Source: Inonotus obliquus (taxonomy: Eukaryota; Basidiomycota; Agaricomycetes; Hymenochaetales; Hymenochaetaceae). Taken from it: a stretch of 64,000 nucleotides of DNA. The notes beneath the pieces are model-generated. The model had not been told where the DNA came from and ran no database searches. It saw only the letters and a program-made list of their open reading frames with translations. Shown here one piece after another: positions 5,698-51,984 of this stretch. The DNA lies in assembly GCA_032164295.1 (NCBI GenBank), contig JAJHTX010000012.1, positions 62,001 through 126,000 on the forward strand. The letters are read 5' to 3'. The first letter of the stretch is position 1; every line of letters starts with the position of its first letter. A program made the position numbers and the translations under genes.

Positions 5698-6220
5698 GAA
5701 TGAAATACATTATTGTTCTCATACTTACATCGAGATGGCGTGGAATTGAAAACATGAAAGCGATATTATATCTTATACCAACTTACAGTACCTTTAAGTC
5801 ATCATATTTATTCAGAAAGTCATAGGTCTGCTCATCTCTTACGGGATTTTGAGGTTGCTCACATACTCTTTCAGAGACTTGCAAGTGGCGATCAGTCTTA
5901 CCGATCCACACACATCATTCTCCATTTGACAACTCTGATAACGGCTTACAACACCTTTTGATGCCCTGTACGAATTTGAGGTTGCTCACATACTCATCTA
6001 TATATTTCGGCCCTGCTATACCATACATGCACATACATGCTTCATAACTACTGCCAGACTTTTTCCCGATGCTCCTGCTACTTCCACGTGTTCCCTTGGT
6101 TTATACCCTGGATACCGTGTACTGCTTTGCTATCACATTCTGTACTCTACGTTTTATGCATGGTGTTTCAATGGAGAATTGTGTCTCGATTATTTCTATG
6201 CCATTGTTTTTCATCATATT
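5698..6220. other. Gene-free stretch with one short duplication
   Basis: AT-rich, no convincing frame. A piece reading TTTGAGGTTGCTCACATACTC occurs near 5849 and again near 5973, as if a short segment was duplicated. The right end is the 9-bp target duplication of E1. Confidence 0.4.
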
Positions 6221-10722: not shown

Positions 10723-10744
10723 CACAGGGGGCAAAACAACATAT

Positions 10745-11175
10745 CAACGACGTTGATATGACCTTTGATATCCTTATTGATATTTAATATATCAGCTGAG
10801 TCGGAATGTGTATCGGTATTTAAAGTATTAGCGGGGTTGAAATGCAAATCAATATATAAAATATCATCACATGTGATATCCTTATCAATATCTATATTGA
10901 TATTCTTATTGACATTTAAAATATCACAGGAGTTGATACTTTTATCGATATATAAAATATCACCACATGCAATATATAAAATATCATCACGTGTGATATT
11001 TTATATATCATCACGTGTGATATTTTATATATCATCACATGCGATATTTTAAATATCATCATGTGCAATACTTGAAATATAGGCGTTGATATTTTAAATA
11101 TCAACACACTTGATACTTAAAATATCGCAGACATTGATATGCTTACCGATATTTAAAATATCAATGCGATATTGC
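10745..11175. repeat. K1 left subterminal ATATC array
   Basis: Many short units pair AAAATATC with GATATTTTA around CACGTG- or CACATG-like cores. The outer 330 bp is nearly the reverse complement of 21478-21805. In CACTA elements such arrays are transposase-binding sites; that role here is inference. Open frames through it on both strands are low-complexity artefacts. Confidence 0.7.
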
Positions 11176-11500
11176 CATTTTCGGCACCTCAAATCCCTCA
11201 AAATACAAACCTTGCCATATCTCCATGAAACCTTGACCGTTTTGCGTCATCTAAGTTGCTAAATTCATGTCTCAACTATGCCGTCCAAATTGCAACAAAT
11301 CCGAGCGAAATTGGTGAAGAATTGACCCCAAAATGGCGCAAAATGCTATTTTTTCATGCTTTTGTCTTCCACACTTTTTCCTACACTCAATTCTGGGTCT
11401 GCAGCACCCATAACTGTCTCAGAGCCCTCAGATGGAATAACTATGAATTTAGAGAATGAATTTGAGGTGTATTGTGGCACCTCAGGCACCCCCTTAGCCG
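11176..11500. repeat. Diverged left arm of an inner fold-back element
   Basis: This is clearly related to the fold-back arm at 9660-10000: both have CTAAATTCATGTCTCRA and CTCAATTCTGGGTCTRCA and the same order of blocks, at lower identity. Its partner is 21067-21472 on the other side of G1. The terminal 30 bp expected by comparison are missing or replaced by array sequence. Confidence 0.55.
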
Positions 11501-11528
11501 AACTCTATTAGAGTGAACTTTTCCTATG

Positions 11529-11874
11529 TATCAGCGACAGCTAACAGCACTGGTTTACTGCTGGGCTATGCCTTTACTCAGTCGCAGCAAAGAGAGTAGT
11601 AGTAAAGAGAATAGATTGGGCTGCTGCTAACCGGAGGTTAGATCAGGTCAAAGCTAGGGTACAGGGGAGTACTACGAGCTACTTATATACCCTACAGTGT
11701 GGCTGTGCAACAGCTACTATTACTAAGCTAATATTCTAGAAGGTTCTGGATCAGGTGACTAATTACTAAGAGATGATGACAAATAAGGAGTGCATATGAT
11801 TAGAAGATCAGGTGATGGGAAAATAAGGGAAAGGAAAAGAAAAGAAAAGAAAAATTAAATATGAGTTCATGACA
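11529..11874 (-). repeat. G1 3' LTR
   Basis: A 346-bp LTR. On minus it begins TGTCATGAACTCATATTT next to a purine-rich tract TTAGAGGGGAGGG at about 11880-11893, which would be the plus-strand priming site. It holds ACTTATATACCC (TATA-like on plus) and a short AAAAG microsatellite. Only a few substitutions separate it from the 5' LTR. Confidence 0.88.
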
Positions 11875-12706
11875 TAACCCTCCCCTCTAAGGTGGATGTC
11901 CCAGCTGCCTGAAGAACTTGGCATATCTTGACCATGCGTAAGGCCTCTGGATGTCGCTGATAGAACTCCTCAATCTCTTCTTGGGCATTCTCCAAGTTGG
12001 CTTCAGGTTCCCAGGTGCGCTCGGACTCGGGGTATCCCTTCCAGTGTACCAAGTACTCCTTTTCCCTCCGTCATCGCCTGACATCAAGAATCTCTTCAAC
12101 TTCAAATTCTTCCACTCCGTCCTCTAAGTCCGGTGGAGGTGGTGGTTCACGTTGTTGAGAAGGAAACTTTGGTTTGCGATAGGGGGTGAGGAGCACCTCA
12201 TTAAACACAGGATGTACACGACACCATCGAGGAGATAGCTTGAGCTTGTATGCCGCTGGACTGACTTTCTTTTCTATGACAAAAGGACCATATCGCTTGT
12301 CACACAGCTTTTTCATAGGTTGATTAGAGGAAATATTTACTCCTTCCAGCATTACTTGGTCACCTAGTTCGTAAGGATGCGAGTTCCCCTTCTTGCGGTC
12401 ATAGTACAGCTTCATTATGTCAGCAGTCTCTTCAAGCACCATACGAGTCTCCTCATGAACTTGTTGCATCCGATCTGCAAACTGCTTGGCCGTTTTGTTT
12501 AACACTTCCCGTTGTGGATTGGTCCCTTTATACAGATGTCTTCCGTAATTGACGAAGAAGGGAGACTGTTTGGTTGACGAGTGTTTCTTGTCATTGTATG
12601 CAAACTCAGCCAGTGCTAGCCATTCCACCCAATCCGACTGATGGTGATTGATGAAGATGCGCAGGTATTGTTCTACCTTGTTAGGACGGATGAGGTGGCG
12701 GTGCAC
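11867..12706 (-). pseudogene. G1 integrase C-terminus and chromodomain
   Basis: Frame 12071-12706 covers the distal integrase: EQYLRIFINHHQSDWVEWLA, LAEFAYNDKKHSST and the GPFVIEKKVSPAAYKLKL region that precedes chromodomains. After an in-frame TGA at 12071-12073 the reading continues as EYLVHWKGYPESERTWEPEA, NLENAQEEIEEFYQRHP, a clear chromodomain with its aromatic residues. Chromodomains of this class direct integration to heterochromatin marked on histone H3; this is known for the family and inferred here. The first few codons of the open frame come from the solo LTR, not from the integrase. Confidence 0.88.
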
Positions 12707-13239
12707 ACTCGAGGCCTGTTCTCACGAAGGTCGTCTGGAGACAACCTCTACTGCGTCTTGAGGGGAGAGTACACAGTCGTCGGCGACGTACGTCTAAGGT
12801 AGATGACCTTGAGTAATGCACGCGTCTAGGAACAGTATACGACTAAGATGTCGTGGTGGTAAGTAGATTGAATAAACTAAATAAGTACAAGAGAGGAATA
12901 CCTAAGACGTCGTGGTGGTAAGTAGAAGAGTCGAGTGGGGAAGACGAGACAAGATCTATCTACTTATATACACATGAGACGTGGGAAGGTATTACTCTAA
13001 GAAGGTGCTGTGCAGCAGCATAACAATATAAACAAACAAACAACGGGGCCCGACGAGTCAGCAAGAATGAGTAAGCGTGAGTAAGCGTCATCGGGTTGGG
13101 GCAGAATTAGTAATGCAGTATTAGTAATATATCAGGATGGGGCAGAATGAGTCATAAGGTATTAGTAATGAAAGGAACTTAGTAATATAATGGAATATGA
13201 AAAATAAGAAAAGACAAAAAAGGAAGAAATGTTCTTACA
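12679..13239 (-). mobile_element. Solo LTR-A inserted in the G1 integrase
   Basis: A 561-bp TG..CA LTR flanked by a perfect TACCT duplication (12674-12678 and 13240-13244). Removing it and one duplication rejoins the integrase in frame across NQEV and EQYLR. It is homologous to the LTRs at 26916-27464 and 43765-45081. It contains ACTTATATACAC as a promoter box and an internal duplication of GTCGTGGTGGTAAGTAGA. No internal retroelement sequence is left, which indicates LTR-LTR recombination after insertion. Confidence 0.92.
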
Positions 13240-13244
13240 TACCT

Positions 13245-14058
13245 CCTGATTAATGCACTCCGTCTGTCCATCTGTTTGTGGGTGAAATGCCGTGGATGCA
13301 TTAGCTTCGATCCCTAGCAGCTTGTAGAATTCTTTCATGAACTTCGACTCGAACTGAGGCCCTCGATCATGGATGAATTTCTGGGGAATACCATGCAGTC
13401 TGAAGATCTGGTCCCTATATATTTTGGCCATTCCTTCTGCTGTGAGAGACGTGTTGACAGGTGTGAGGTGGATCATTTTGCTGAATTGGTCCACTGTTAT
13501 GCATATCGCATTATGTCCTTGTGATTCTGGTAGTTCGCCAATAAGATCCACTGAGACTATCTCCCATGGTGCAGACGGAACTTCGTTAGGGTTGAGAGGC
13601 ACTTTTGGCTTTGTGCGATGTGCTTTGGTCCGTTGGCAAGTATCGCATCCTGAGACGTATCATCGGACATCGTAATGGATCCCTGGCCACCAATAGTTTC
13701 GAGTGATCAGTTCTGTCGTCTTGTACTGTCCTGGGTGTCCATCAACCCGAGAGTCATGGTGGGCATGCATGATGTCTTCTCGCAGTTTTTGGTCTCTTGG
13801 CACATAGATGTGTCCTTGTTTGAGCATCAGTCCATCTGGTAGAACCTCCCATTGATCATCCTTTTCTGCCAAAGCCAGCTTGACAACTCTATCCACCATA
13901 GATCTTGCCTTCATAATTCGTTTGACGAAATCCTCGTCTAGTGATTCAACTAGAATTTTGTTGATGAACCATTCTGGTTTGAGGATTGTGATGTTTAAAT
14001 TGTCATTCTCCCCCCTCTCATAGTCTGCTCGTCTCGAGAGAAGATCCGCTTTCGTCAT
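13245..14058 (-). pseudogene. G1 integrase zinc-binding and catalytic core
   Basis: The first frame (13660-14058) has the HHCC-type zinc region: HHDSRVDGHPG, YWWPGIHYDV and, past a TGA, GCDTCQRTKAHRTK. The second (13162-13602) has the catalytic core with the first Asp in VSVDLIGELP, the second in FIHDRGPQFESKF and Glu in HPQTDGQTECIN, the standard D,D,E set. The core is then cut by the solo LTR. The stop between the two frames (about 13660) is TGA in a position where relatives have Arg. Confidence 0.88.
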
Positions 14059-15417
14059 CTGAGATCCTGGTTTATGGAAGAGCTTGAAGTCGTATTCTGC
14101 TAGCTCTGTGACCCATCGTGCTTGGCGATAATTTAACTTCTGGGGCTTTTTGAAGTACTGGAGGTTAAGATGATATGTCCAGATTTCAAATGTTTGTCAT
14201 GCTCCCAGAAGGTATTGTCACCAGTCGTCAAGAGAATCCATGATCACTAGCAACTCCTTGTCATAGATTTTGTAGTTGCGCTCTGTTGCATTAAGCGATC
14301 GTGATCTGAAGGCAATAGGTCGCCATTTTTCATTGATTCTCTGTGAGAGTATAGCACCGTTGGCAAAGTTGGACGAGTTGCATTTGATGTGGAACTGATC
14401 ATTGTCTGTAGGAACTGCCAGTACGGGCTGTTCGGATATCTGTTGCTTGAGACGATCAAAGGCTTTGACTTGTTCGGTTCCCCATTGCCATTCCACCTTT
14501 CCTGTTAGCGCATGTAGTGGTTTGGCGACATGGCTGAAGCCTAGGATGAAGCGGCGGTAGTAGTTGCAGAACCCTAAGAATTGTTGTAATTTGTGTTTAT
14601 TCTTGGGTTGCGGCCAATCCTTGATGGCAGCTACCTTTTCTGGGTCCATCCTAACCTCTTCGTTTCCTACAATATGTCCCAAATACTCCACATTTGGTTG
14701 TATGAACGAACATTTTTCTGGCTTTAGACAGAGTTTGTGTGTTTGAAGTACTTCCAGGACTTGTCGCACTAGCTGATCATGATGAGCCTGTGTTTGCGCG
14801 AAGATGAGGATATCGTCTAGGTATACAATAACGTGTCCATCATCAATGAGGTCCTTAAGTATTTCGTTCATGAAGCCTTGGAATGTTGCAGGGGAGTTGG
14901 TTAGACCAAAGAACATCACTGTAGGTTCGAATAGGCCACAGTTGGTACGGAATGCTGCCTTCCACTCATCACCCTCCTTTATCCTGATATTATTGTACCC
15001 CCATCGGACGTTTAGCTTTGTAAAGTATTTTGCCTGCTTTGTTTTATCAATGAGCTCTTGGATAAGAGGCAACGGATATTTGTTTTTGACTGTGCCTTCA
15101 TTGAGCCGTCGATAGTCTTGAACAGGGCGAAGCTTGCCATCCTTTTTCTTGACAAAGAAGAAGGGAGAAGCCATAGGGGATTTGGAGGGGCGAATGCGAC
15201 CGGTACAGAGATTTTCTTTGAGGAAATCGTCTAATGCCTCTTGTTCTTTAAGGCTGAGAGGATAGATCTTGCAATCAGAAGGTTGAAATCCTGGTGTAAG
15301 TTCGATTGTGTGATCCCAGGGGCGACGTTCAGGGAGATGTTCGAACTCCTTTTTGCTGAATACATCTGCATACTCTTTTACGAAGTCAGGTGCTGCCTGT
15401 ACCACAAGTTTGCACAT
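14059..15417 (-). pseudogene. G1 reverse transcriptase and RNase H
   Basis: The 399-codon frame contains MASPFFFVKKKDGKLRPVQD, YPLPLIQELIDK, FGLTNSPATFQGFMNEIL and VIVYLDDILIF, whose YLDD holds two of the three polymerase aspartates. It continues into the RNase H region, with the expected acidic residue replaced in context FHIKCNSSNFANGA (homologues usually have D before the Ser). The frame ends at DDW, followed by TGA, then QYLLGA, another TGA, then FEIWTYHLNLQYFKKPQKLN, which is RNase H running into the tether. Both stops occupy Arg positions. The polymerase core itself is uninterrupted. Confidence 0.9.
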
Positions 15418-15966
15418 TTCTATCTGTTTGCCTAAGGGTTGGTTTGCCTTGATATAGTCATCCCAATTGAAGTAGAAGAGTCATGCCTCATTTTCCCCCA
15501 TCCACTGTTCTCACTCCTCTTCCTCTTCGTCTGGTTCATCTTCCACATTGCCGACCTTTGGTACGTATCCACAGTCTTCAGGACAGCGGGTGAATGCAAT
15601 CTCCCCTGTAGTCCAGTCTATACTGGGATTGTGATGTCATAGCCATTCGTGTTCTATGAAGAGGTGGGTGTCTCCTAGCTCCATAACCGCCAACTCTATT
15701 ACTTCTGAGTGGTCTCGCACTGTCATTTGAAGTTCCACACATTTGGTTACTGCTCTATTCGCAATTGGTGTCCCGTCTGCATTATAAACAGGGAGCGAAA
15801 TGGGTAGTTTCTTGGTGGGGATGTTATTGGCCTCTACGATCGTTTGACTAATGCACAAGCCTGTGCAACCACTGTCTAGTAATGCCGTAACCTTCCATTT
15901 CCATAGGTTATCTAAGCGTTGCAGAGTGACTGGTAATGTGAGTTGCGATGATCCGATCTTGCGCAC
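15418..15966 (-). pseudogene. G1 aspartic protease and linker
   Basis: The retropepsin active site is ALLDSGCTGL (D-S-G-C-T) in frame 15637-15966, followed by PVYNADGTPIANRAVT and ELGDTHLFIEHEWL as in gypsy proteases. The next residues after a TGA (15637-15639) are HHNPSIDWTTGEIAFTRCP, and a further TGA near 15480 separates this from the RT. The layout matches the G2 protease at 40278-40916, which has DSGATGSL. Confidence 0.88.
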
Positions 15967-16140
15967 AAAGCGTTTGGGACCCTTCAGACTTCTTACAGCC
16001 GCAAGAGCTTCTTCTCTTGATAGCTCATTGATAGAGATGATTAGCTCTTCTGTAACTTTAGTCCGTCGGCCAGAAGGGGTCCATCCTCACAATACTGACA
16101 AGGCATGATCGGGTTTGTCTTCCTTCAAGCGCTTTACCAC

Positions 16141-16751
16141 CTATGCTGCGGTGTGAGGGATCGGAAGGTCTCGGAGATTCCTTTTAGGATGAGTTTTGTA
16201 TGTGGGTTTTTTGTTCTCCTCTGGCACCAAGAAGCAAGAAAAAAGAGAAGGAGTTGAAGAAATATAATCAAGAGAAACATTTGCGTTTGAGTGTGGTTTT
16301 TCTTTATAAATATTTTTATTAGAAGAAAGATCAAAAGAGAAATCACAGGAGTATTCTACAAGAGGATGTTTTTCTAATTTTAATTTTGCGATTTTTTGTG
16401 AGTTTTGTGGGAGTTTTTCGTATAAGTTACATGGATCGACTACTGGATCATCATATTCAAAAGAGTCCATAGAAAAGGTGACAGATTCGAAATATTCTTC
16501 ATCCCCAGCGCACACCACATTCATGCCTGAGGGGTAGTAAAATCCTGTTCTTCGGCTTGTTCTTCGGCCAATTCTTCTAATCCAGTCTCCAGTTCTTCTT
16601 CAGCTATGTCTTTGGCCTGACGCATGCGGTTGCACTCCACTGCCCACTCCTGGAATTCTGTAGGCTCCATTTTCTGGAAGATCTCTTGTATCTTCACTAC
16701 CATTTTGGACAGAACCTGGCTATGTGTCCTGGTTGGTGACAGAAATAGCAC
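16141..16751 (-). pseudogene. G1 Gag tail and Gag-protease spacer
   Basis: An acidic segment (16521-16751) has EEELETGLEELAEEQAEEQD, then after a frame change comes a spacer of 127 codons rich in Lys/Ser/Asn (16141-16524). Downstream toward the protease a TAG at 16138-16140 and a TGA near 16088 interrupt LKEDKPDHALSVL and GWTPSGRRTKVTEELI. No domain is recognised. Position between zinc knuckle and protease defines it. Confidence 0.6.
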
Positions 16752-17602
16752 TTGTTGTTGCGGTTGGCCCTGTCCATGGTGATCTCCATTGGTTGGCCTC
16801 TACCTCCATATGTGACACCTGTAGCATCTCTCTTATCTGCTGCTTGTGGAGGTGGACCAGGGGGAGGACCATACTGAGGAGCAGGTGGTGCAGGGTATGT
16901 GCGTTGCTGGGGTTGTGGACGACGGGGAAGAGTTCTAGGTACATTGCTTCGTTCTGCTATATTGTAGCGTATTTGGTGTTCCGTATCGTCAGCTTGGGAG
17001 ATTGCATTTTTCCAGTCTTCATACGTAGTGGGGAACATGCGAGCTGCAGTTCGGTATACTTCTGGAAGGACACCTCATTGCAGGAGATGGATTACTACGG
17101 TGTCATGTGCATTCCCAGCTAGACCAGCATTGGTGCGGAGCATTTCAAAGCGAGAGAAGAAGTTTTGAGCTACTTCATCTTTCTTCTGACGACAGGCTTG
17201 TAGTAGCTCCCAGGCCTTCTTCGATTTGTTCTGGTCTTTGAAGGTAGCATCGAGTAATGCCAGGAACTGTACAAAGGTCTCCCCTATTGCTATTAATCTA
17301 GCCGGGGTCGTTTGTTGTGCCACGAAGCTCCTTGCCCAGGTAGCCGCCTCTCCACCTTTCATATATGACAAGATGAAGAAGATCTTGCTCTCATCATTGG
17401 GGAATTTACTTCGCTCCCCCTGCATGTAGACCGCACAGGAATGACGGAAATCCTCATATTCACTTACCAGCCCTGAAAATTCTATAGGCTTGACAAGAGT
17501 CAACTTGGTGGATGTAGCCGGTTGGTGTGGAGCCTGAGGTTGTGGCATCACTTGTGCTACTCCCATCGCCACCGCCTGCGAGCTTGCTTGAATGACGGTC
17601 AA
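16697..17602 (-). pseudogene. G1 Gag capsid core and zinc knuckle
   Basis: The core frame (17075-17602) has KPIEFSGLVSEYEDFRHSC, IFFILSYMKGGEAATWARSF and FEMLRTNAGLAGNAHDTVVI, a typical gypsy capsid. A TGA at about 17073 (context CAA TGA GGT, Arg expected) separates it from 16697-17038. That frame carries a Pro/Gln-rich linker and the nucleocapsid CCHC motif CYFCHQPGHIARFC. A frameshift follows CPK. The product would coat genomic RNA and form the particle. Confidence 0.88.
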
Positions 17603-18135
17603 GATCGCATTCCATTGATCAGGGGTGAATCTACCAGGAGGGGGTGGTGTTGGTGGTCATGGTGGTGGTGACTGTGGTTAGGGAGTGGGGGGTCTGGATG
17701 GTGGCGCAAGCACCGCAAATTGCGGAATGGGTGACGCTGGTTGTGACATTTCTTCGTCAGTAGACCACTCTTCGTCTGTGGGATCGATGGTAAGGGTTTT
17801 TCGACGTTTGGATACGATTGAGGTGGAGTAGGATCTAGCTCGTCTAAGACCAGCAACACGTGTGACTGGAAGTAAAGTATCGGTGCATGGGCATTTTTGG
17901 GGTTGGTCAGGTGATGAATTTTGTTTCCTTCTACGGATGAGCCTTCGTTTGTACCTCCTGCACCTGCTTGTGTATGATGTAAGCTTGGCCAGTCCTTTAA
18001 TCTTCCTGCATTAGATTGATAATGGGAGGATATGGAGGAGGAGGTTGGACTGGAATGGGTTCCAGAGTTGGTCAGCGGTGAAAGTGACGCGGTGCAAGTT
18101 CTTCCGATATGGCAATAACGATCCGGAAGATCCAC
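17599..18135 (-). pseudogene. G1 Gag N-terminal Pro/His-rich region
   Basis: A 178-codon frame of low-complexity Pro, Ser and His runs (for example NHSHHHHDHQHHP). The capsid core is read in a different phase here: GRFTPDQWNAILTVIQ leads into 17602 on minus, with a TGA upstream in a Pro-Arg-Pro-like context (about 17657). Some of the frame is therefore probably the wrong phase, and the true N-terminus is uncertain. Confidence 0.45.
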
Positions 18136-18627
18136 ACGTAGGCTACAACCGTTAAGACCCGACTAATCCACACACGGTCTGTCTCCTAGTTCCACACACG
18201 CCTTTCGTGAGCCCAGAGGGTGATCTTCAGTACCAGTTTGGCCTAAGGGTGACGGACATTGGCGACTACCAGACTGCAGGTTAACACTACCTGTCGCTGA
18301 GGAACCAGACAGAGTACACTTAGAGCGTCAACGATTCGCCCAGCTTCCCGCAAGACACTGCTGGTCTGTTGGATCTCACAATCCCCGTCAGGCAGCGCTA
18401 ACTGAGAGAGGTGTTTTGTCAACCGGCGAACAAGGCCAGGGGCAACACTTCACAGTAGGATAGGGAAGGCTAGGTAGACGTTGGTAACTACTATGCAAAG
18501 TCTTAACAGCGACAGCAGAGGTGGCAGGGGTAGGAGTCCGTTGTTCGACGAAACGACACGAGGTAAAAATAAAAGTAATGGTAATGACGAGTAAAGGGAT
18601 AGAGCAACAAGAATAGCTTTGACCTTA
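18136..18627 (-). other. G1 leader between 5' LTR and Gag
   Basis: Non-coding by position. On minus it starts AAGGTCAAAGCTATTC right after the LTR, where the primer-binding site should lie; I could not match a tRNA. No frame of note. Confidence 0.55.
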
Positions 18628-19018
18628 TATCAGCGACAGCTAACAGCACTGGTTTACTGCTGGGCTATGCCTTTACTCAGTCGCAGCAAAGAGAGTAGTA
18701 GTAAAGAGAATAGATTGGGCTGCTGCTAACCGGAGGTTAGATCAGGTCAAAGCTAGGGTACAGGGGAGTACTACGAGCTACTTATATACCCTACAGTGTG
18801 GCTGTGCAACAGCTACTATTACTAAGCTAATATTCTAGAAGGTTCTGGATCAGGTGACTAATTACTAAGAGATGATGACAAATAAGGAGTGCATGTGATT
18901 AGAAGATCAGGTGACAGGAAAATAAGGGAAAGAAAAAGAAAAGAAAAGAAAAGAAAAGAAAAGAAAAGAAAAGAAAAGAAAAGAAAAGAAAAGGAAAATT
19001 AAATATGAGTTCATGACA
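18628..19018 (-). repeat. G1 5' LTR with expanded AAAAG microsatellite
   Basis: A 391-bp partner of 11529-11874. The extra length is a pure run of AAAAG-type units at about 18931-18992, longer than in the other LTR. Outside that run only a few positions differ, for example GTGCATGTG here against GTGCATATG. CTATG follows directly (19019-19023). Confidence 0.88.
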
Positions 19019-19023
19019 CTATG

Positions 19024-21066
19024 TATAGTTTATATTTAATAGATATGTATTCCTGGGATTAATCCTCCATCCTAGGATGTAATTGTAGGATTTCCTGGTT
19101 TAATTCAGTCTTGTCATCGACTGGTGTCAGGGGTCCTTTTTTAAGGATATCCTCGATAATTACCTGCCCTCCACAACTTCGTGAAAAATCCCAAAAAATA
19201 TCAGAAAAATGTACTTTAAGTGTAGAACAAATCTGTCAGAAAAACTCAAATTTTTGTCAAATATTGGTTGAGATATTCGCATTTTTTGTGTGTATCTCCA
19301 CAGCAGAGAAAATATTTCAAAATTATTTTTGACAGAAATGTTCAAAATCTCTTAAATATTATGTATGTGGAAGAAGTCTGGAAGAAAATTATGTATTCAA
19401 GAAGCCTGGATGCATATATGCCACTGAAATCACAACAAATTAGGACTTGTGTAGTTTTTTTTGATGAAATTTAGACATTGCATTTGGATGTAGGTTTACA
19501 GGTAAGTTATTACATTCAAGGTGGGGTGTGTTGGGTGTTTACAGTGGGAGGAACACTTCAGAAAATGAGCCCGGCCTGTAATTTCAAGATCACGTGATAC
19601 TTGGATTTCATTCAGAAAATGCATACAATTTGGCACAGTCATCACTAAACAGATTATCTGTTATAATTTTGTGCAATGCAGGCAGTTTATACATCATTCA
19701 CTATATTTATAACCTGTTGGACTTGTTACTGGGTGCTATATACACTCGAGGGGGAGTTTACTGTTCTGAATGAAGCTGAGACACGAAGATCGACACTGCC
19801 TTTCAAATTTGGGTTCGCTTAGCGGAGGAAGCGACTGTGGGAACTCACGAAAATTTGATAGGCCGTGCCAGTCACCATAATATGCAAGCCGCGTGAAATT
19901 GTGTCACGTGACTTTTGAAATTGCATAATCACCGGTGATCGGCAGGCAGAAGTTGTCGAAAATAAGGTTTACACTAAAAATGCTACTAATTTTAGATGCT
20001 CCGGAGTTCCAGACATCTACAGATTCCCACACCACCTCTCCTTCCACATTTGGTAACTCCACCACACATCCTTTCGGCATGCTGATCACATTGTCCAAGA
20101 GCCTTGCTCATTGTCTGACACAGTAAGCACAAAGAACATGAATATCTCAGTCAATTCTCAACCGATTTTTATGATTATTTTTGTAAAAATCATGTAAATT
20201 CAAGTACATCAATCTGGTGCACTTATATGATTTTTACTACTTAAGAGTGATGTGGGAAGTGCAATCCAGCATGTTCTAAAACTGTAACTACCTTCTCTAC
20301 CTAGAACATGGAATAATATTGCAGATCTCTTTATACAGTATTAATAGGCATGTATATAACTACATAATTGCAAAATATCTCCTCGGTAGCATTAGTATAC
20401 TCTGCACTGTAAATTACTCTTTTATGCTATTTTTATTAATCTGTATCTCTATAGCCACTGAGCCGATTCTCATAAATGTTGTCTTGAAATGCTTATATTG
20501 ACTACTGTTACTCCACAAAACAATATCAGGACATTACCTCGAAGGACTATATTTCTACTAAGTGTACATTCTGAGACGGGCAACACTTCAAACTTTACCA
20601 AATCATGTTCATTTTCTATGATTGTTTTTCTCCCTAGGAGTGTATATAGACTACTATCAGATCCTGTATAGCACATGTGCATAAAGTTTATCAGATATGG
20701 CAAAACACATGTACGTGTATTTTATGTATTTAAGCACAAATTCCCGTGCCTCTATTTCTGCTTCCACAGTTGTTGACACGTGTACATAATGTATGCAATC
20801 AAAATATATAATAATCCATTGAACATGTACAAAGTATGGTGTTAATCGGACAAGAATTGACTGAGATATACATGAAACACTATCAAAAAGTGTGTAATTC
20901 ACCGCATTTTTTGAGTATTTTGTTAATAATAATTCAAATTCAAGCTCTCTCAGCCCCAAACTCTATGGATATACTATATTTGAGTATTATTACAAGATGA
21001 AAGCACAAGTGGTGTGAGAGGATGAGGGTAAAGTGTTGGTCTAGAGGTGTAGCAGTGTAAAGTGAA
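19024..21066. other. K1 interior, gene-free
   Basis: AT-rich, no convincing frame. Pieces 19155-19230 (inverse) and 19750-19880 (direct, ending GGCCGTGCCAGTCACC) resemble the 3' third of the E family, so at least one decayed MULE-like copy is buried here. Otherwise I see nothing. Confidence 0.45.
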
Positions 21067-21472
21067 CATAAATTAGAGATGGAGGGGGGATTTCAGTGTT
21101 CCAGGCATGCCTCAGACCAGCACTTTCAGTCCAAACTACACCCCAAATGCAGGCCCTGAGTTCACAGTTATTCTATCTGAGGGCTCTGAGACACTTGTGA
21201 GTGCTGTAGACCCAGAATTGAATGCAGGAAAAAATGTAAATGAGGAACACATGAAAAAACGACATTTTGCACCATTTCTGGATCAATTCTTTACCAATTT
21301 GGCTCGGGTTTGTTACAGAATGGACGGAGCAATTGAGACATGAATTTAGCAACTTAGATGACGCGAAACGTTCAAGAATTGAGTGAGATACGATTTATTT
21401 TGTGTTCTGAGGTACTGGAGGGGCCAAAAATGGCAATTTGGCACGTGTTCTCATTACTTTTGCAAACAGCTG
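21067..21472. repeat. Right arm of an inner fold-back (Tc1-like) element
   Basis: Homologous to the fold-back right arm at about 10310-10722, from GGCATGCCTCAGACCAGC to GGCAATTTGGCACGTGTTCT. It ends GCAAACAGCTG followed by TA (21473-21474) in K1's right ATATC array, so the end looks like a Tc1/mariner terminus (CAGCTGTTTGC on minus). Its left partner is the diverged arm at 11176-11500. Confidence 0.6.
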
Positions 21473-21474
21473 TA

Positions 21475-21805
21475 AAATATCACATGTGATGATATATAAA
21501 ATATCACACATGATGATATTTTAAATTTTGCATGTGGTGATATTTTATATATCGCACGTGATGATATCTTATATATCGCATGTGGTGATATTTTATATAT
21601 CGATAAAAGTATCAACTCCTGTGATATTTTAAATGTCAATAAGAATATCAATATAGATATTGATAAGGATATCACATGTGATGATATTTTATGTATTGAT
21701 TTGCATTTCAACCCCACTAATACTTTAAATACTGATACACATTCCGACTTAGCTGATATATTAAATATTAATAAGGATATCAAAGGTTATATCAACATCA
21801 TTGAT
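21475..21805. repeat. K1 right subterminal ATATC array
   Basis: Inverted counterpart of 10745-11060, with the same order of blocks (for example GGAATGTGTATCRGTATTTA read on minus). It lies directly inside the K1 right terminus. Confidence 0.7.
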
Positions 21806-21833
21806 ATGTTGTTTTGCCCCCTGTGAGACTGTA

Positions 21834-23010: not shown

Positions 23011-23345
23011 GTATTTCATTTAATTCATTATGTACTATAGAAATTCATAAGTATAACTATCTATTTAATGTGTTACTATAGTATGTCTTCAGTAATTTGA
23101 TGGATTCAAAAGTTTCAGGAAGCAAACAGTTTCTACGCTTCGTGTCAACAAGACTGGCACCCGAAAACACTTGTTCGCAGGGTACAGATGACCCCTGAAT
23201 TGGAAGATAGTCTCATGCGATACGAGACAGTATAGGATAGTGAGTGCACTCATCTGGAACAATATGAGGTCGAGTTCCATTGATGAGAACAGTCACTCAC
23301 CTTCCACCAAGTAATTAAGTTATAATCTTCACTCTGTTCAAGTGG

Positions 23346-25127
23346 TGAATGTGCAAGAACACGGCCGGTATCAGATGTACCGGACGAGGGGGGTACAATT
23401 TAGGTGTGTTGGGAGGGCCGGTACGTGGTGGTACTAAGTCGTACTGACACAGACAGGTCGTCGAGAGAGATAGTAGGGCCTGGCTAGATAGGTGAGTACA
23501 GAGAGTCTCTAGGTGACCACTCAGGAGAGGGAAATAGCGGGCGGCAGTCGATACTGAGACGAATCCATCGATACCGAGTCGTTTGTCATTCAGTATTGAG
23601 GTAATAAGAACAAAGTAGAGGCGGAGATGAAGTAGAGGCGGAGACGAAGTAGAGGAAGAGTTCTTGATGAGACTAGTCGCAAGACGAGGGATGAGTACTA
23701 CGAAGACGATGCCGACAACTACCGGTATCGATACCGGCAACTACAAGATGAGACGAATGAACGAGGACTTGAATGAGATGAGCAGAACCCGGATCTTCAC
23801 TCTGGAAGCTCCTCTCAGATTAGCTGGTTTGCTACGGTAGAACATGCAGGCTATAAATACCATAATACCGTAGCCACTCAAGATACCAAATGGGAAATTT
23901 TTACAAGTCAAATTGTACCACAATCCGGTACAAGAAGGGGAACATAAGATCAAAATGAATGTAAAAATATAATCAGGGGAAACATAAGATGATGAATGAA
24001 TAAGAAGTTTTATCAGGGGTTAGCTAAGAATAGGGTGGGACAAGACAAGAATCCAATGAAAACTCACAACAAGTGATACCGAGGTAAGGTGGCGGTACCG
24101 ATGTTGACCAGCGCTAAAGTAAGGACGTGTTTCAAGCTACCACATGGGTGCTCCTGATGATGGTCCTGTCGTCTTCTTCTCTGGAGAAGCGCGTCATCTA
24201 GATTTACCTTTGTTCTGGTATCATGATCCGTGCAGCGTCAGTCTGGGCGTTTACCGAGCAATCGAACAGCGTGCGCTGAAGTTGACATGTCAGTATAACC
24301 CAACCTTGGCATAGGAGGACTCTATCGCTCGTAACCAATCAGTATGCTGGGATCGTCCTTGGGCATCAATAAGATCGCTCGTGCCCCTCGATATCTATCG
24401 GTACACATTGCCTGGCCCGACTGGGCATGGCTTGGCTTGGCTTCCAAGTCAGATTGATGGTCTCCTCTGAGATCAAAGCAGCGTATGACAGATCTGATTC
24501 ATTTCCCAACCTTCCTCTCAACATAGATCTTTGAGGGTGCAGTATCAACCTAGCACACATCACGAACTTCGGTACTGGAGTGGGCCACCGGTATCAACAC
24601 CGGTATCGTCGGTATCGATGCATGACGGTTTGGAAGGGCAGACTGTCAGACTTGGAGCTTCAACACTTTTGATGATCCAACTCTTCGCAGCAATGTATGG
24701 CAGACCGATTGTAGCTTGTGACCTTCCTCCTGGTATGGGCCATCGAGAGCGTAGTATCGACTAAACATGGACTATTAAACATTGGTATCAGGATGGGTGG
24801 ACAGTACGGTACGGTATCGGTATCATCGATATCAAAGCCTGGTGATTCAGTACTGTGATGGAAGACGGGCATAAGAATTGGTGATTCAGTATTGGCGCAG
24901 AAGTCTGGCTAAATGCATGCAGGACCAGTTCTCAATTGATCTTAGCCTAGTCTAATTGCAGAAGCCTCGTACTTCATTGGAACTACAGGCGTAGATAGGA
25001 TGGCAGAAGTACCGTGGTCTAAAGAGAAGTAAGAAGCGGTAGAATCACAGAAGTATTGTTAATTGGAAGAAGCGGTAGAATCACAGAATTAAGCCCATAT
25101 TGATCGTAGCCTCCGGTATTACCCTTT
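23346..25127 (+). repeat. B-family dispersed repeat, copy B1
   Basis: Starts TGAATGTGC and ends TATTACCCTTT, flanked by AGTGG (23341-23345) and AGCGG (25128-25132). Homologous end to end to B2 and B3. Contains GATACCGGCAACTAC-type repeats, a palindromic CCGGTATCGATACCGG and GGCTATAAATACC as a TATA-like box near 23850. No coding frame is conserved between copies. Fits a solo LTR with unusual ends or another non-autonomous element. Confidence 0.65.
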
Positions 25128-25399
25128 AGCGGATCGGTAAGGTAGCAAGTCAACTTCTCTCTTAAGACTTTGGGCATGGAACTCTCGTGCTGCAGCCGCT
25201 GATCAGCTGCAGCATGAAGTCATTTCATGCCCAGTATATCTGTTGTTGATGTCAGTTGATTTTTCGCAATCGGTTTTGTAGCCGGTGCATCAGCGAGTGC
25301 CTAAGGCTTATATACAGTATATTTAGTTAGTAGAGTGAGAGTTGTTGATAAGTAAAAATTCACCTGTGTAAGCGAGGCTTGTTGCTGAGCTTCGTATTT

Positions 25400-37222: not shown

Positions 37223-37745
37223 TCGTGTTCCTCGTGCCCAAGACTATGTCGGGTGTTGCTCGGGAGTTCTTGCAAGCTGCTTTGCCGACGATGGCGAACG
37301 ACAAATGTCTCGGCCTTCGGACCGAGTGTGTAGGCTTCCCCTTATGTTGGAGACGTAGTTCAGCATTAAGGTTTATTACCCAGGCCCGGCGGCAGTAATG
37401 TCGACCATGTAAACCCAATAAGTCCCCCTCCTTTTGCCTTCCTCCCCTTCCGATCTCGACGTTGTAAGTGACCTAGGGAGTGGTGCCAAGCCTTCACGGG
37501 TGAGGACTATTTCTTGGTGATATGATATTGGGGTCGCCCCTATACTGACATCTGGTTCCTCACCAGATGTCATCCTCAATGCAGAGCTGTTACTGTACCA
37601 CAAACAGAGTTTGACGAGGAGTGCCTTACTCGTCATTGGAGTGCTCGCCGATGAGGCTCTAGTATGTGTGTTGACGCGCTAGGTGTACAGGCGCAGGGAG
37701 CAGAGACGTACTGCATTACAAACATCGGTGTGAGGGCATTACCGC
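37223..37745. other. Gene-free stretch between C1 and B2
   Basis: GC-rich spacer, no gene or clear repeat. It ends with ACCGC, the left duplication of B2. Confidence 0.4.
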
Positions 37746-39465
37746 TGAATGTGCGAGAACGCGGCCGATATTAGAAATACCGGATGAGGGGGGTACGATT
37801 TAGATGCGTTGGGAGGGCCGGTACGTGGCGGTACTAAGTCGTACAGTCACAGACAAGTCGTCAAGAGAGAATAGTAGGGCCTGGCTGGATTGATGAGTAC
37901 AGGAGACTATAGGTGACCGCTCAAGAGGAGAGGTATCAGGAGACGATCAATACCGAGACGAATCCGTCGATACCGAGTCGTCTGGTGTCCGGTATTACGG
38001 TAGAGAGAACGAAGCAGTAGAGGAAGCAAGCTGAGGAGGTGTTTCTGATGGGACTGATCGTGAGACGAGAGACGAGGGCGACGAAGACGAGAACGACGAC
38101 TACCGGTATCGATACCGGTGACTACGAGACGAGACGAACGAACGGGGACTTGAACGGGATGAGCAAAACCCGGACCTTCACTCTGGAAGTTCCTCTCAGA
38201 TTAGCTGGTTTGCTACAGTAGAACATGCAGGCTATAAATACCATAATACCGTAGCCATTCAAGATACCAAATGGAGGGTTTTTACAAGTCGAATCGTACC
38301 GTAATCCGGTACAAGAAATGGAACATAAAGTCGAATTGAATGTAAAATTACAATCAGGGGAAACATAAGATGATGAATGAATAAGAAGTTTTATCAGGGG
38401 GTAGCTAAGAATAGGGTGGGACGAGACAAGAACCCAATGAAAACTTACGACGAGTGATACCGAGGTAGGGCGGCGATACCGACGTCGACCAGCGCTAAAT
38501 TAAGGACGTGTCTCAAGCTACCGCATGGGCGCTCCTGGCGATGTCCCTGTCGTAGGAGAAGCACGTCATCCTGATTTACCTTTGTTCCGGTATCATGATC
38601 CGTGCGGCGTCAGTCTGGGCGTCTACCGGTCGATCGGACGGCGTGCTCCGATGTTGACGTGTCGGTACAACCCAACCTTGGCAATGGGGTACTCTACCGT
38701 TCGGTACCAATCAGTACCCTGGGATCGTCCCTGAGCATCGCTCTAGCCCCTCGATATCGACCGGTACGCGTCGCCTGACTCGACTGGGCATTGCTTGGCT
38801 TCCCCTCCGAGTCGGATCGATGGCCTTCTCCGAGATCGAAGCAGCGTACGGCGGACTTGATTCATTTCCCAACCTTCCTCTCAATGTAGATCTCCGAGGG
38901 CGTGGTCTCGTCCTAGCACACATTACGAACTCCAGTACCGGAGCGGACCATCGGTATCAACACTGGTATCGTCGGTATCGGTGCTTGGCGGTTCGGAAGG
39001 GCATACCGTCGGACTTGGAGCTTCGATCATGATCCAACTCTTCGCAGCAACGTACGACAGACCGATTGCTGCTTTGTGAGCCTTTTCCTCTGGTATGGGC
39101 TGTCGAGGGCGTAGTATCGACTAGACGTGGACTATTAATCGTCGGTATCAGGATGGGTGGACGGTACGGTATCGGTATCATCGGTATCGAAGTCTGGTGG
39201 TTCGGTACTGTGATGGAAGACAGGCGTAGGGATTGGTGATTCGGTATTGGCGCAGAAGTGGACCAGTTCTCAATCGTTCTTAGCCTTGTCGAATCGCAGA
39301 AGCCTCGTACTTTGTTGGAACCGCAGGCGTAGATAGGACGGCAGAAGTACCGTGGTCCGAAGAGAAGTAAGAAGCGGTAGAATCGCAGAAGTATTGTTAA
39401 TTGGAAGAAGCGGTAGAATCGCAGAATTAAGCCCATATCGATCGTAGCCTCCGGTATTACTCTTT
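37746..39465 (+). repeat. B-family dispersed repeat, copy B2
   Basis: Starts TGAATGTGC and ends TTACTCTTT, flanked by ACCGC (37741-37745) and ACCAC (39466-39470). About 1,720 bp, same order of blocks as B1, including CCGGTATCGATACCGG and GGCTATAAATACC. No coding. Confidence 0.68.
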
Positions 39466-39470
39466 ACCAC

Positions 39471-45452: not shown

Positions 45453-45501
45453 TTCTGACCTATGGTTCAGCTCTAGTCTTGTCCTACAAAATCTCCTTCT
45501 A

Positions 45502-45895
45502 CACAGTGGGCAAAATAGGATATCAGCGGGGATTGTATTTAAAGTATTTTTCGAGCATTTATTTTAAGTATCAATAAGCATACCGACTGAGCTGATATTT
45601 AAAATATTTTTCACATGACAAAGTTTTAAATATCGGTCGGATTATAATATGTAAATCGATATTTTAAATATCGCTTTACTGATATTTTTAATATAGGTCA
45701 AGATATCTAATTTGCCGAAATTTCAAATATAGATAAGAATATTGTCAAAGTCAATATTCTAAATTTCATTTGCAGGGATATTGAGCAGGCGACAATAGGC
45801 AGGCAATGAGAGGGCAACAGGCGGGTGACAAGAGGGCGACGGGAGGATGATGGGAGGGCGATGGATGGGCGACGAGCAGAGACATCTTCACCACC
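45502..45895. repeat. Left terminal block of the Pack element
   Basis: Terminal GGGCAAAATAGGATATC, then ATATC/GATAT units such as AATATCGCTTTACTGATATT, then GGGCAACAGGCGGGTGACAA-like minisatellite units up to about 45895. Inverse counterpart of 48141-48553. Confidence 0.75.
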
Positions 45896-46263
45896 ACGCT
45901 GTTCATTCCATTTCATAGGTCCCCCCAGGAAGGGCTGCATTCTGATTGCTCATGGCAAACTCCCGTCTAACGAGATAGATTGTCCTTCTTTCCAGAAATG
46001 ATCAAAGCACCGTACACGATAATTCTCTTCTGACTCCACAAAGGGTTTATCCTTGATCCAGACTTCCTATATGTTTGGAAGAACGGCCAGCCATCCAACT
46101 TCGCAGTTCTCGTCGATACATTCCAATGCCATGAGTCTCTCGAGCCCGCATAGCAAGTCTATCGATTGCGTGCAAAATTAAGGAAGAGTGTCCATCCCAA
46201 CTTGGTATAAATACCCAGGACGGAGTCAATCATGTCGGGCTCATAGTAAATCTGTTGGGGTTC

Positions 46264-46767
46264 CTAGCTGTGACGTACAAGTGTGAGCAATGCGAGAGCA
46301 ATAGCCAAAGGTGAGAATTTGACAAAGTCGCGATAGAAAAAGGTAACTTCCATGAGAAATCTTGCGACATGCTGAACCTTTGTATTCTTCAAACGAGCCA
46401 CAGCAATAGAATAGAGGCAAGCTTCTGCGATTGGATGACCCAACGTCCACTGAATGGTAGCAAGAACATGTCCTTCCATCTGGATGAAGGCAGATTCGTC
46501 ATAGGTATCACAGCAGATCCCAACCAGGTCGGTTAGAGTTGGCACGCGTTCTTTCGCATCCTCGAGTTTTGCTGCTATCCACAACACCGCACAACCAACT
46601 AATCAGAAATGCTTCGTGTATACAATGCGACACGAAACATATTAGTCGACAATATTCATGGTAAGGTAAAGAGTCTCAGGACGAAGTTGGAAAGTAAAGT
46701 GAATCTCGATAAGAAAGTTGACGAGACAAGGCTGCACAGCCCATTTGATTTCCGGTTGCTGATCCAT
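46264..46767 (-). pseudogene. B-type (mitotic) cyclin fragment
   Basis: Mitotic cyclins bind and activate CDK1. From ATG 46767 on minus: MDQQPEIKWAVQPCLVNFLI, EIHFTFQLRPETLYLTMNIV, an in-frame TAA (46642-46644) where Arg is expected, YVSCRIVYTKHF, an in-frame TGA (46603-46605), LVGCAVLWIAAKLEDAKERV and QWTLGHPIAEACLYSIAVAR. It ends at TAG after ALALLTLVRHS. This covers the cyclin box N-fold and part of the second fold. The destruction box and N-terminus are absent. Two stops inactivate it. It sits inside the Pack element, reading opposite to RAD23. Conserved cyclin-box residues make the family clear. Confidence 0.88.
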
Positions 46768-47090
46768 GGCTGAAGTAGAGCCCATTGTTTAGTCCTTATG
46801 CATTGACGCTCGACACTTAGAACGGGAGCCACTCGCGTAAATAAGTCACTTTTCAATGACTGACCTCCATTTCTTGCATATAACAGCATAACTCTTCACA
46901 GTGTTCTTCCTCAACGTAAATGTCTTCTCTCCTGAAGGCAGCTAGTTGAGCCTCCGGTGTCGTATCTGCTGTAGCTCGGCTTTCAAGATAGCCGGAGTCT
47001 TGCAAGAAGGGGCTGGAGAGTCCTTGCAGTGGGATTTCTTAACACTGTTCCCAGTGAGGAGATGGTCATTTCTTGGAATAGAATTGGTTC

Positions 47091-47528
47091 CTAGCAGGGC
47101 AAGTGGAGATAGAAGATACGTCCTTCATGCTGAGAGAGGATGGTTTCGAAACTGCGGAAAATGAGGAACAAAATAACTCTGCAATGGATAATAGTGCCAG
47201 ACTTGTCCTTGCCAGAGCCCAAATCAATATAACTAAGGGGACGTGAAAGATTATCCAGTCGGATATCGAGAGTACCGACAATGTTGAGTGCTTCAGATCG
47301 CATCAGAAGATAGAATAAGTGGTGGGTATCAGTTGAGAGGACGAACAGATTTACGAGACCCAACCAAGCGAATTGAGCACGCCAGGAGAACTTGGGCTTT
47401 GCATCTTCGGCTAACGCCTGCCTGAGCCTCGATCTATTATACCTGATGAACGTCGCTATCTGTCTAATATGGCCATTACTTGCCCCACAAATGGTAGGAA
47501 CGAGAGAGAGGTATTTGAGGTTCTGCAC
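47091..47528 (-). CDS. Unidentified frame inside the Pack element
   Basis: A 145-codon frame containing GHIRQIATFIRYNRSRLRQA and LVNLFVLSTDTHHLFYLLMR. The composition is like that of an ordinary globular protein, unlike the shadow frames around it. I recognise no domain. It lies upstream of the cyclin fragment on the same strand, but the cyclin's own start is at 46767, so it may be a third captured gene fragment. The last 30 codons (FETILSQHEGRIFYLHLPC) may be out of the true frame. Whether it is expressed is unknown. Confidence 0.4.
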   Translation of the reverse strand: MQNLKYLSLVPTICGASNGHIRQIATFIRYNRSRLRQALAEDAKPKFSWRAQFAWLGLVNLFVLSTDTHHLFYLLMRSEALNIVGTLDIRLDNLSRPLSYIDLGSGKDKSGTIIHCRVILFLIFRSFETILSQHEGRIFYLHLPC

Positions 47529-47671
47529 TTCTGCATATCATAGCCATTGGGTGTGGCATTACCAAATATAGATGCTTAGTCAAACATAATGGCACTTCTG
47601 ACTCTTAGGTAAGCTTCTTCTTCTGTCCCTTCCCTTTATCACAGGTATGTTCTCCACACTCTGATCACGAC

Positions 47672-48140
47672 ATGATCAAACTCACAATCAAAACTTTGCA
47701 AGGAAAGGTCTTCGAGGTCAACTGTCTCAGTTGTACTAATGGTTGATCCCTTAAGGACTGGTCCCATAGATCAATGCGGATGAGGAGATTGTATTGCGGT
47801 GGCGGATGTTAAACAAAGAATATTTAAAGACCAATTGGAATACCACGCAGTCGACCTGCAGAAATTGATCCACTCCGGTGAGTCTCAAGGACTTGGTATG
47901 TAACATTATTTAATGCACACACAGGCAAGATACTCCAGGACAGGAAGTCCATCAAGTCTTACAATATCAAGAAAGCAGACTTCATCGTCCTCGTGGTACT
48001 GGTCCATTGCTGCAACATTTTCTTACCTGTTAGTAGCTCAAGCCGACACCAAAAGCTGCCCCTGCAATAGCAGAATGGATGCCCGCTGTAGCTGCCACAG
48101 TTGCGCCTTCTATCATGACTGCTCCTGTACCCACTCGTAG
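47672..48140 (+). pseudogene. RAD23 ubiquitin-like domain fragment with introns
   Basis: RAD23 links nucleotide excision repair to the proteasome, with its N-terminal UBL docking to the proteasome. ATG 47672 starts MIKLTIKTLQGKVFEVNC. After a gap with an intron, IAVADVKQRIFKDQLEYHAV, DLQKLIHSG; then a 47-bp GT..AG intron (47878-47924), GKILQDRKSIKSYNIKKADF, IVLVV; then, out of frame, KPTPKAAPAIAEWMPAVAAT, the Ala/Pro linker after the UBL. The XPC-binding and UBA domains are missing. The fragment ends where the right terminal block starts. The spliced UBL is well kept; the first intron is unclear and the linker is shifted. Confidence 0.88.
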
Positions 48141-48553
48141 CCTGCCCATCGCCAGTCCATCGCCCACCTGTCGCCCTCTCATTGCCCTCTCATTGCCCGC
48201 CTATTGCCCGCCCGTTGCCCGTTCATCGCCCACTTAATATCTACCTGACCAATATTTATAATATCCAGTCTGACGATACCCTTATTGATTCTTAAAATAT
48301 CACCCAAGTAGATATCTTGATTGATATTTAAAATATATGCCAAGTCGATATTCTAAATATCAATAAAAATATCAGTAAGAGGATTTTTTAAATATCTCAC
48401 GGATGAGGATATCCATATTTATATTTAAAATATCGACACGTGAAATATATTATAAGTATCGGCACAGCCGGGACACTTATCGATATTTAAAATATCGGCA
48501 AAAAAAACAATTTAAAATAGCGCCCCCTCCGATATTCTATTTTGCCCGCCATG
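48141..48553. repeat. Right terminal block of the Pack element
   Basis: Starts with minisatellite units (CATCGCCCACCTGTCGCCC, CCTCTCATTGCCC), continues with ATATC/GATAT subterminal units and ends ATTTTGCCCGCCATG. Inverse of 45502-45895 in layer order, but only moderately alike in sequence. Confidence 0.75.
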
Positions 48554-48804
48554 CTAACCCATCCCCAGATGAGTCACGTGATGGTCAACTTCCAATGGTC
48601 CACAGGGATTTTCCTGCCACATACACATAATATTTTCTCAATATTTTTACATGGGTAGATGCACATTATCAAATACTTAATTTACATATCTATATCATAA
48701 TTTTACGTGCAGAATTGACCGAGAAATTGGGCATTTAGTGAGTTTTTGACCTCTGAGGACACATTGCACATCAAAAAAATCACGTGAATTTGCCTAATTT
48801 AGAG

Positions 48805-50110: not shown

Positions 50111-51808
50111 AAAGGGTAATACCGGAGGCTACGATTGATATGGACTTAATTCTGCGATTCTACCACTTCTTACTTCTCTCTGAACCATGGTACTTCTGCC
50201 GTCCTATCTACGCCTACAGTTCCAACAAAGTACGAGGCTTCTGCAATTCGACAAGGCTAAGAACGATTGAGAACTGGTCCTGCATGCATTTAGCCAGACT
50301 TCTGTGCCAATACCGAATCACCAATCCCTACGCCCGTCTTCCCTCACAGTACCGGACCACCAGACTTTAATACCGATGATACCGATACAGTACCGTCCAC
50401 CCATCCTGATACTGATGCTTAATAGTCCACGTCTAGTCGATCCTACACCCTCGACGGCCCGTACCAGAGGGAAAGGCTCACAAGATACGATCGGTCTGCC
50501 ATACGTTGCTGCGAAGAGTTGGATCATTGTTGAAGCTCCTAGTCCGACGGTATGCCCTTCTGAACCGCCATGCATTGATACCGACAATACCGGTGTTGAT
50601 ACTGATGGTCCACTCTGGTACCGAAGTTCGTAACGTGAGCTAGGTCGAGACCATGCCCTCGGAGATCTACGTTGAGAGGAAGGTTGGGAAATGAATCAGG
50701 TCCGCCGTATGCTGCTTCGATATCGGAGGAGGCCATCGATCTGACTCGGAGGGGAAGCCAAGCAATGCCCAGTCGAGTCAGGCCACGCATACCGATCAAT
50801 ATCGAGGGGCTCGAGCGATCTCATTGATGCCCAGGGACGATCACCAGTGTACTGATTGGTACCGAGCGATAGAGTACTCCATTGCCAAGGTTAGGTTGTA
50901 CCGACATGTCAACATCGGAGCACACCGTCCGATCGATCGGTAGATGCCCAGACTGACACCACACGGATTATGATACCAGAACAAAGGTAAATCAGGATGA
51001 CGTGCTTCTCCGGAGAAGGGGACGACAGGGCCATCGCCAGGAGCGCCCATGCGGTAGCTTGAGACATGTCCTTATTTTAGCGCTGGCCGACGTCGGTACC
51101 GCCACCCTACCTCGGTATCACTCGTCATGAGTTTTCATTGGGTTCTTGTTTTGTCCCACCCTATTCTTAGCCATCCCCTGATAAAGCTTCTTATTCATTC
51201 ATCATCTTATGTTTCCCCTGATTTTATTTTTACATTCATTTCGATCTTATGTTCCCCTTCTTGTACCGGATTGTGGTACGATTCGACTTGTAAAACTCCC
51301 CATTTGGTATCTTGAATGGCTACGGTATTATGGTATTTATAGCCCGCATGTTCTACTGTAGCAAACCAGCTAATCTGAGAGGAACTTCCAGAGTGAAGGT
51401 CTGGGTTTTGCTCATCTCGTTCAAGCCCCCGTTCGTTCGTCTCGTCTCGTAGTCGCCGGTATTGATACCGGTAGTCATTGTTATCGTCTTTGTTGCCCTC
51501 GCCTCTCGTCTCACAACTAGTCCCATCAGAAACACCCCCTCTGCTTGTCTTCTCTACTGCTTCGTTCTCTCTACCGCGATACTAGACACCAAACGACTCG
51601 GTATCGATCATCTCCTGATACTTCACCTCTTGAGCGGTCACCTATAGCCTCCTGTACTCATCAATCCAGCCAGGCCCTACTATTCTCTCTTGACGACTTG
51701 TCTGTGACTGTACGACTTAGTACCGCCATGTACTGGCCCTCCCAACACATCTAAATTGTACCCCCCTCGTCCGGTACTTCTGATACCGGCCACGTTCTCG
51801 CACATTCA
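50111..51808 (-). repeat. B-family dispersed repeat, copy B3
   Basis: Inverse orientation to B1 and B2, 1,698 bp, flanked by a perfect CCGCT duplication (50106-50110 and 51809-51813). It defines the ends of the family best: AAAGGGTAATACC at the left and CTCGCACATTCA at the right on plus. No coding. Confidence 0.75.
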
Positions 51809-51984
51809 CCGCTACATGATAACTCAAGTTAAGATACTCATTTTTACAAGTATCCACAGACAAATTAATGTAAATAAGATATTACATAAAATCACCAGTG
51901 TCTAACAAGGAGAAATGCGTCTTTCAGACACATTTTACTGAATCTTTCATAGACTCTATGTGGTCACATGATATGAAACTCTCA

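Follow-up and report, generated by a model that had tools for sequence, protein, structure and literature searches.

Captured fragments of RAD23, its LRR-like neighbour and a cyclin gene in a probably EnSpm/CACTA-like Pack-TYPE transposon family of Inonotus obliquus

Gene capture by transposable elements is well known in plants and little described in fungi, where hAT, Tc1 and Helitron elements are known to transduplicate. In the accessible parts of PMC8903248, plant Pack-TYPE elements, including Pack-CACTA, are non-autonomous, have inverted ends and target duplications, and carry captured coding DNA, sometimes from several loci per element, which transposition multiplies. The CACTA elements of rice and maize described there duplicate 5 nt and end in CACTACAA. 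Host gene fragments are also carried by Tgm-Express, a soybean CACTA element (PMC1947982, available portion). In ascomycetes, the sections at hand of PMC3538342 and PMC6710886 describe DNA transposons that multiply non-transposon coding DNA, either histone H3 in hAT (one captured transcript) or an open reading frame in Tc1/mariner. The Helitrons of Pleurotus are basidiomycete transposons with captured genes; they lack target duplications, and the available part of PMC4289320 reports no host gene fragments in their intact copies. Animal Pack-TIRs, for which an origin by template switching with short microhomology has been proposed, are mostly single-copy, and CACTA is named once in the accessible text of PMC8277862. 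In full-text literature, with subscription journals mostly outside its scope, no Pack-CACTA-like element in a fungus was found.

Like the plant Pack-TYPE elements, the element described here is non-autonomous, has inverted ends and target duplications, and carries coding DNA captured from more than one locus and multiplied by transposition; like Tgm-Express, it carries host gene fragments. It differs from plant Pack-CACTA and from Tgm-Express in its fungal host, and from the former also in its 3-bp duplications and its ends, mostly CACGGCGGG; an autonomous partner was not found here. Like the ascomycete hAT and Tc1/mariner elements it multiplies non-transposon coding DNA, but as a two-locus host mosaic with introns, between EnSpm-like ends and in a basidiomycete.

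The window, a 64,000-nucleotide stretch of contig C12, belongs to a 36-Mb assembly of 30 contigs. The element is 3052 bp long and is flanked on both sides by a CTA target site duplication (Table 1). Its inverted arms are 70–76% complementary, and the terminal blocks within one copy are alike at just about 65–75%. The ends of the family are of the type CAC/CAT..GTG, the right end of the window copy being among those that read CAT. The palindromic motif GATATTTWAAATATC, at up to three mismatches, has 38 matches in the window, where 2.7 would be expected. Of these, 15 are in the two ends of the element with none between, 20 are in the ends of a related element at 10723–21825, and only 3 are elsewhere. 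Captured host pieces explain 45954–48119 and the terminal blocks the remainder, 45880–45953 excepted, and a transposase of its own is absent from the element. The related element has ends CACAGGGGGCAAAACAACATATC, an AGA duplication and inverted ends of about 750 bp (79%), and is interrupted by an LTR retrotransposon whose LTRs (11529–11853 and 18628–18952) are 98.8% identical.

Table 1. Layout of the element at 45502–48553 (window coordinates).
Feature	Position	Strand	Remarks
Target site duplication CTA, left	45499..45501	.	
Left terminal inverted block	45502..45792	+	End CACAGTGGGCAAAATAGGATATC; subterminal stretch AT-rich, 7 GATATTTWAAATATC matches
11-bp GC-rich subterminal repeats, left	45793..45879	+	
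Captured later part of host LRR-like gene	45954..46235	-	Host C6:1338755-1339058; 82% over 304 columns
Captured mitotic-type cyclin gene fragment	46235..47135	-	Host C1:2521759-2522664; 90% over 908 columns, with intron
Captured LRR-like N-terminal exon and start of LRR/RAD23 intergenic region	47139..47576	-	Right border approximate
Remainder of captured intergenic region, up to RAD23 start codon	47577..47671	.	From alignment
Captured RAD23 ubiquitin-like domain and start of Ala/Pro linker	47672..48119	+	blastn match stops at 48067; alignment continues to about 48119
RAD23 exon pieces in element	47672-47719, about 47790-47880, 47924-47999	+	
11-bp GC-rich subterminal repeats, right	48134..48233	-	
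Right terminal inverted block	48234..48553	-	8 GATATTTWAAATATC matches; outermost bases (reverse complement) CATGGCGGGCAAAATAGAATATC
Target site duplication CTA, right	48554..48556	.	

At up to two mismatches the end pattern had 170 matches in the genome, and its reversed control none. The right terminal block had at least 74 matches (40 of 170 candidates scored), and the left block, 45502–45895, at least 61 in its own genome (40 of 142 candidates scored). Among the end matches listed (100 of 170), 17 pairs were spaced by 354–359 bp, and thus mark elements too short for cargo of cyclin/RAD23 size. Complete copies were obtained by pairing ends by orientation and distance, with both flanks needed and unpartnered ends left out. 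There were 25, from 2.0 to 24.5 kb long, and 23 of them had identical 3-bp target duplications, compared to 13 of 600 mismatched left/right pairs taken as a control; one of the two exceptions matches at 4 bp. The CTA duplication, CAC-type inverted ends and inverted terminal blocks that an earlier note had read from the window alone are present. According to match lists with 40 candidates scored in each, cyclin/RAD23 cargo is present in 12 complete copies (at C4:2622325 the RAD23 part only), a USP7-like MATH fragment in nine, and neither in four, the related element in the window being one of these four. The window element is a member of a multi-copy family and not a one-off, and copies with the same ends and different cargo, which the note had proposed to look for, do exist.

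Two copies, C10:1838442 and C12:791080, have the identical outer flank ttaccaaatctc, perhaps because both inserted at one position within another repeat. C6:80084 and C6:97529 are right-type and left-type ends in a non-pairing orientation, which may reflect an inversion or a pair of broken copies. At L075 and L076 the same cyclin/RAD23 cargo lies next to more diverged terminal blocks, with the end CATGGCGGGCAAATCAGGATGG at L076, so that the cargo seems to be common to a second end subtype.

The plus-strand fragment had been recognised as the ubiquitin-like part of RAD23, and its stitched peptide indeed matched the Pfam ubiquitin family (E 5.1e-10). Against the PDB, 5 of 60 listed rows (296 matched) were RAD23A/B, with poly-ubiquitins scoring higher. 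The host RAD23 gene, located via its XPC-binding domain (a single match in the genome), is on contig C6 at about 1336–1338 kb and adjoins the place matched by the right part of the cargo. Window positions 47139–48067 align to that place (L077) as one continuous stretch, 70% identical over 1032 columns, which in the host runs from the N-terminal exon of a divergent LRR-like gene, across the intergenic region, into the RAD23 ubiquitin-like exons and on to the linker. The leftmost cargo piece matches a later part of the same LRR-like gene (L079), a match for which a 13-row copy consensus gives further evidence. The name LRR-like was given from sequence, the Pfam match being weak for the later part (E 0.013) and none being obtained for the N-terminal exon.

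The element is without 683 bp of the LRR-like gene, and holds there about 0.9 kb of cyclin sequence on the same strand. This minus-strand fragment, noted before as a B-type cyclin, matched Cyclin_N (E 3.5e-10) and Cyclin_C (E 4.3e-4). Its parent gene (L072) is on contig C1 at about 2521–2523 kb, where, within 3.8 kb read, the cyclin piece is the sole part matching the element. The parent has a 356-aa open frame containing both domains, its best PDB scores are with cyclin A and B chains, and the closest named protein is a 483-aa protein of Sanghuangporus sanghuang (92%), which puts the host within or close to Hymenochaetaceae. When proteins were searched with the cyclin frame of one copy, nothing above 77% identity appeared among the best 120 of 125 matches, which hints weakly, at the protein level, that other species have no copy of the cargo. 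A search of a plasmid collection gave no match.

A third frame (47091–47537, minus), which the note had reported without identification, is real: cyclin sequence makes up its left-hand part, and the N-terminal exon of RAD23's divergent neighbour the remainder. It had no PDB match. A separate third source locus is ruled out for it, because this exon is continuous with RAD23 in the host. Of the two or three host loci formerly proposed, capture from the host and two loci hold, namely the divergent RAD23/LRR-like pair on C6 and the cyclin gene on C1. The parents thus lie elsewhere, as predicted, and on separate contigs; a RAD23 gene adjacent to the cyclin in host DNA, which would have spoken against capture, was not seen in this genome. 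The cyclin stretch aligns to the host gene straight through its intron and the RAD23 exon-intron layout is also preserved, which supports the DNA-based route suggested earlier. In contrast, RAD23 and cyclin do not face each other as had been stated. The cyclin and LRR-like pieces point leftward (minus) and RAD23 rightward (plus), away from the native intergenic region, so that transcription from any promoter retained there would run in the sense direction and not in the antisense one that the note had envisaged.

Given the inverted ends and target duplications in multiple copies, the like ends with unlike cargo, the absence of an own transposase and the host gene fragments with parents elsewhere, the element is very probably a Pack-TYPE element, a non-autonomous DNA transposon with terminal inverted repeats, whichever superfamily moves it.

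CACTA elements have arrays of short subterminal motifs, and such arrays are present at both ends here. Helitrons are not known to have inverted ends, whereas the element has both these and a target duplication. In the available part of PMC12730594 (2025), fungal EnSpm elements have CAC..GTG ends and 3-bp duplications, PlavakaA has TGT..ACA and 2 bp, and PlavakaB has CATCA..TGATG and 2–3 bp; these lineages and others form one clade, mostly with CA..TG ends and duplications of 2–5 bp. The copies, with fungal-EnSpm-like CAC..GTG ends (some CAT) and 3-bp duplications, have neither kind of Plavaka end, and EnSpm/CACTA is the best fit under that description. A genome-wide search for Transposase_21 (PF02992) gave no match, its control being likewise silent. 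No transposase was recognised in the seven long copies read through, nor at one end of another, and most of their extra length consists of LTR and other nested repeats. Of the open frames in or next to long copies, 10 were compared with Pfam and matched no transposase, the others being judged by eye. With no transposase recognised, we judge from its ends, duplications and subterminal arrays that the element is probably EnSpm/CACTA-like. The earlier description of a CACTA-type element that had replaced its transposase stands as to ends and duplications; transposase proof was not found, and replacement is something we can only infer.

The same Pack-type element might instead be moved by Plavaka, by another lineage of the clade or by an undescribed one, an alternative that overlaps with the main explanation and that we consider rather unlikely. 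It would agree with the EnSpm transposase search without match (and its silent control), with the 17 Plavaka-family matches in the genome and with the common clade of PMC12730594, as far as the text at hand goes. However, ends of mostly CACGGCGGG with 3 bp are unlike those given there for PlavakaA and PlavakaB, and among the matches listed (100/170 and 100/122), compared by eye, the end nearest to a Plavaka match was about 17 kb away.

Used as a DNA query, the cargo matched at least 29 clusters (40 of 71 candidates scored), one of which is the host cyclin gene. Among the at least 28 others the LRR/cyclin junction was spanned in 24 and the cyclin/LRR junction in 25, a recurrence that points to a single fusion and its later spread. 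Read from the junction letters, the donor sequence common to both sides is 1 bp and about 3–4 bp. One locus, L073, holds a cargo copy (777–2078) with the cyclin/LRR junction and without either end. It differs unusually little from the host cyclin gene (3, 4 and 15 changes by codon position), which suggests slower decay or gene conversion; it is ruled out as the cyclin parent because the junction is already in it.

A tree of the cyclin part (12 copies, L073 and the host gene) was star-like, and the branch of the host gene was short. Changes between copies were near-even across codon positions (1385:1491:1583; 66 copy pairs, 11112 codons), and on these counts the cyclin part of the cargo evolves neutrally. 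Between host and copies they were 165:180:262, and we read the third-position excess as the host gene's own branch. In the host cyclin frame, 13 of 15 copies had at least one stop, and 13 of the 29 Cyclin_N matches located in elements were stop-free across the matched stretch. In 14 copies compared to the host gene, with direction assumed and shared changes counted repeatedly, C>T and G>A made up 402 of 679 changes; 232 of these 402 were at CpG, which accounts for 84 of 276 C/G sites. Such a bias would be as expected for methylated DNA. The cyclin cargo is thus probably a silenced passenger, and a selfish passenger is the most defensible reading of the element.

It is very unlikely that the cargo functions as an accessory gene, encoding an LRR-cyclin fusion protein that aids the transposon and is kept by selection. 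Several copies have open cyclin frames of 170–200 aa, and both junctions are in frame (LRR/cyclin in copy L061, cyclin/LRR in the 13-row consensus), for which the joint chance is 1 in 9; yet the codon-position counts disfavour a selected gene, as do the stops. A host segmental duplication or pseudogene island lying between repeats by chance is hardly credible, for although introns and divergent order are retained in the host pieces, the borders fall at element ends and target duplications at many scattered loci, and the LRR-like and cyclin genes, separate in the host, have a common fusion in the repeated copies.

How the Pack-TYPE element came about may be proposed as follows. Two neighbouring insertions of a short element would have been mobilised jointly with the RAD23/LRR-like pair between them; alternatively, a break inside a short element with such ends would have been repaired by copying in that pair. 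The gap in the LRR-like gene would then have been filled by copying in about 0.9 kb of the cyclin gene, with 1 bp and about 3–4 bp of common sequence at the joins. Mobilisation of DNA between adjacent insertions is a proposal found in the accessible part of PMC8903248, and template switching at microhomology in that of PMC8277862; the RAD23/LRR segment would fit the former and the cyclin patch the latter, both steps being inferred. A transposase supplied in trans would have spread the single fusion to at least 28 loci, after which copies would decay at CpG sites and receive hits from other transposons. The cyclin part is 90% identical to its parent and the RAD23/LRR part less so, at 70% as a whole and 82% for its later LRR stretch; capture may thus have happened at different times.

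In the second cargo, that of the nine copies, stitched exons matched MATH_2 (E 7.6e-12), and 11 PDB matches, all USP7, were weak (best E 0.03). No direct parent of this cargo was located. The USP7-like fragment, as query of a DNA search (118 first-look candidates, 40 scored), had many listed matches on many contigs with common borders (413–1383 of the query) and, compared by eye, no listed element end adjacent, so that another repeat family seems to carry this fragment too. The window contains another mosaic at about 3908–5700, in which a USP7-like fragment at 4134–4792, matching the second cargo at 84.5%, precedes a CCR4-like piece (about 5260–5690; Exo_endo_phos E 8.5e-6, stitched frames). 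A repeat of about 1.7 kb, at window 23341–25128, 37740–39466 and 50147–51814 and at L061 3584–5964, is nested in several element copies; its L061 version has 33-bp perfect inverted ends.

A broader proposal, which we regard as improbable, is that a short EnSpm-like element takes up host genes time after time, as with RAD23 and its LRR-like neighbour, a cyclin and a fragment of a USP7-like deubiquitinase, and that its CpG-decayed, presumably methylated copies, keeping the native RAD23/LRR intergenic region, would act in trans on the parent genes by small RNA or methylation. With this family, gene shuffling of the Pack-CACTA-like sort, which has been studied mostly in plants, is extended to a basidiomycete. 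The two source loci, the two fusion junctions and dozens of copies are all in one 30-contig assembly, and the capture mechanism and trans-silencing of the parent genes become testable within a single genome.
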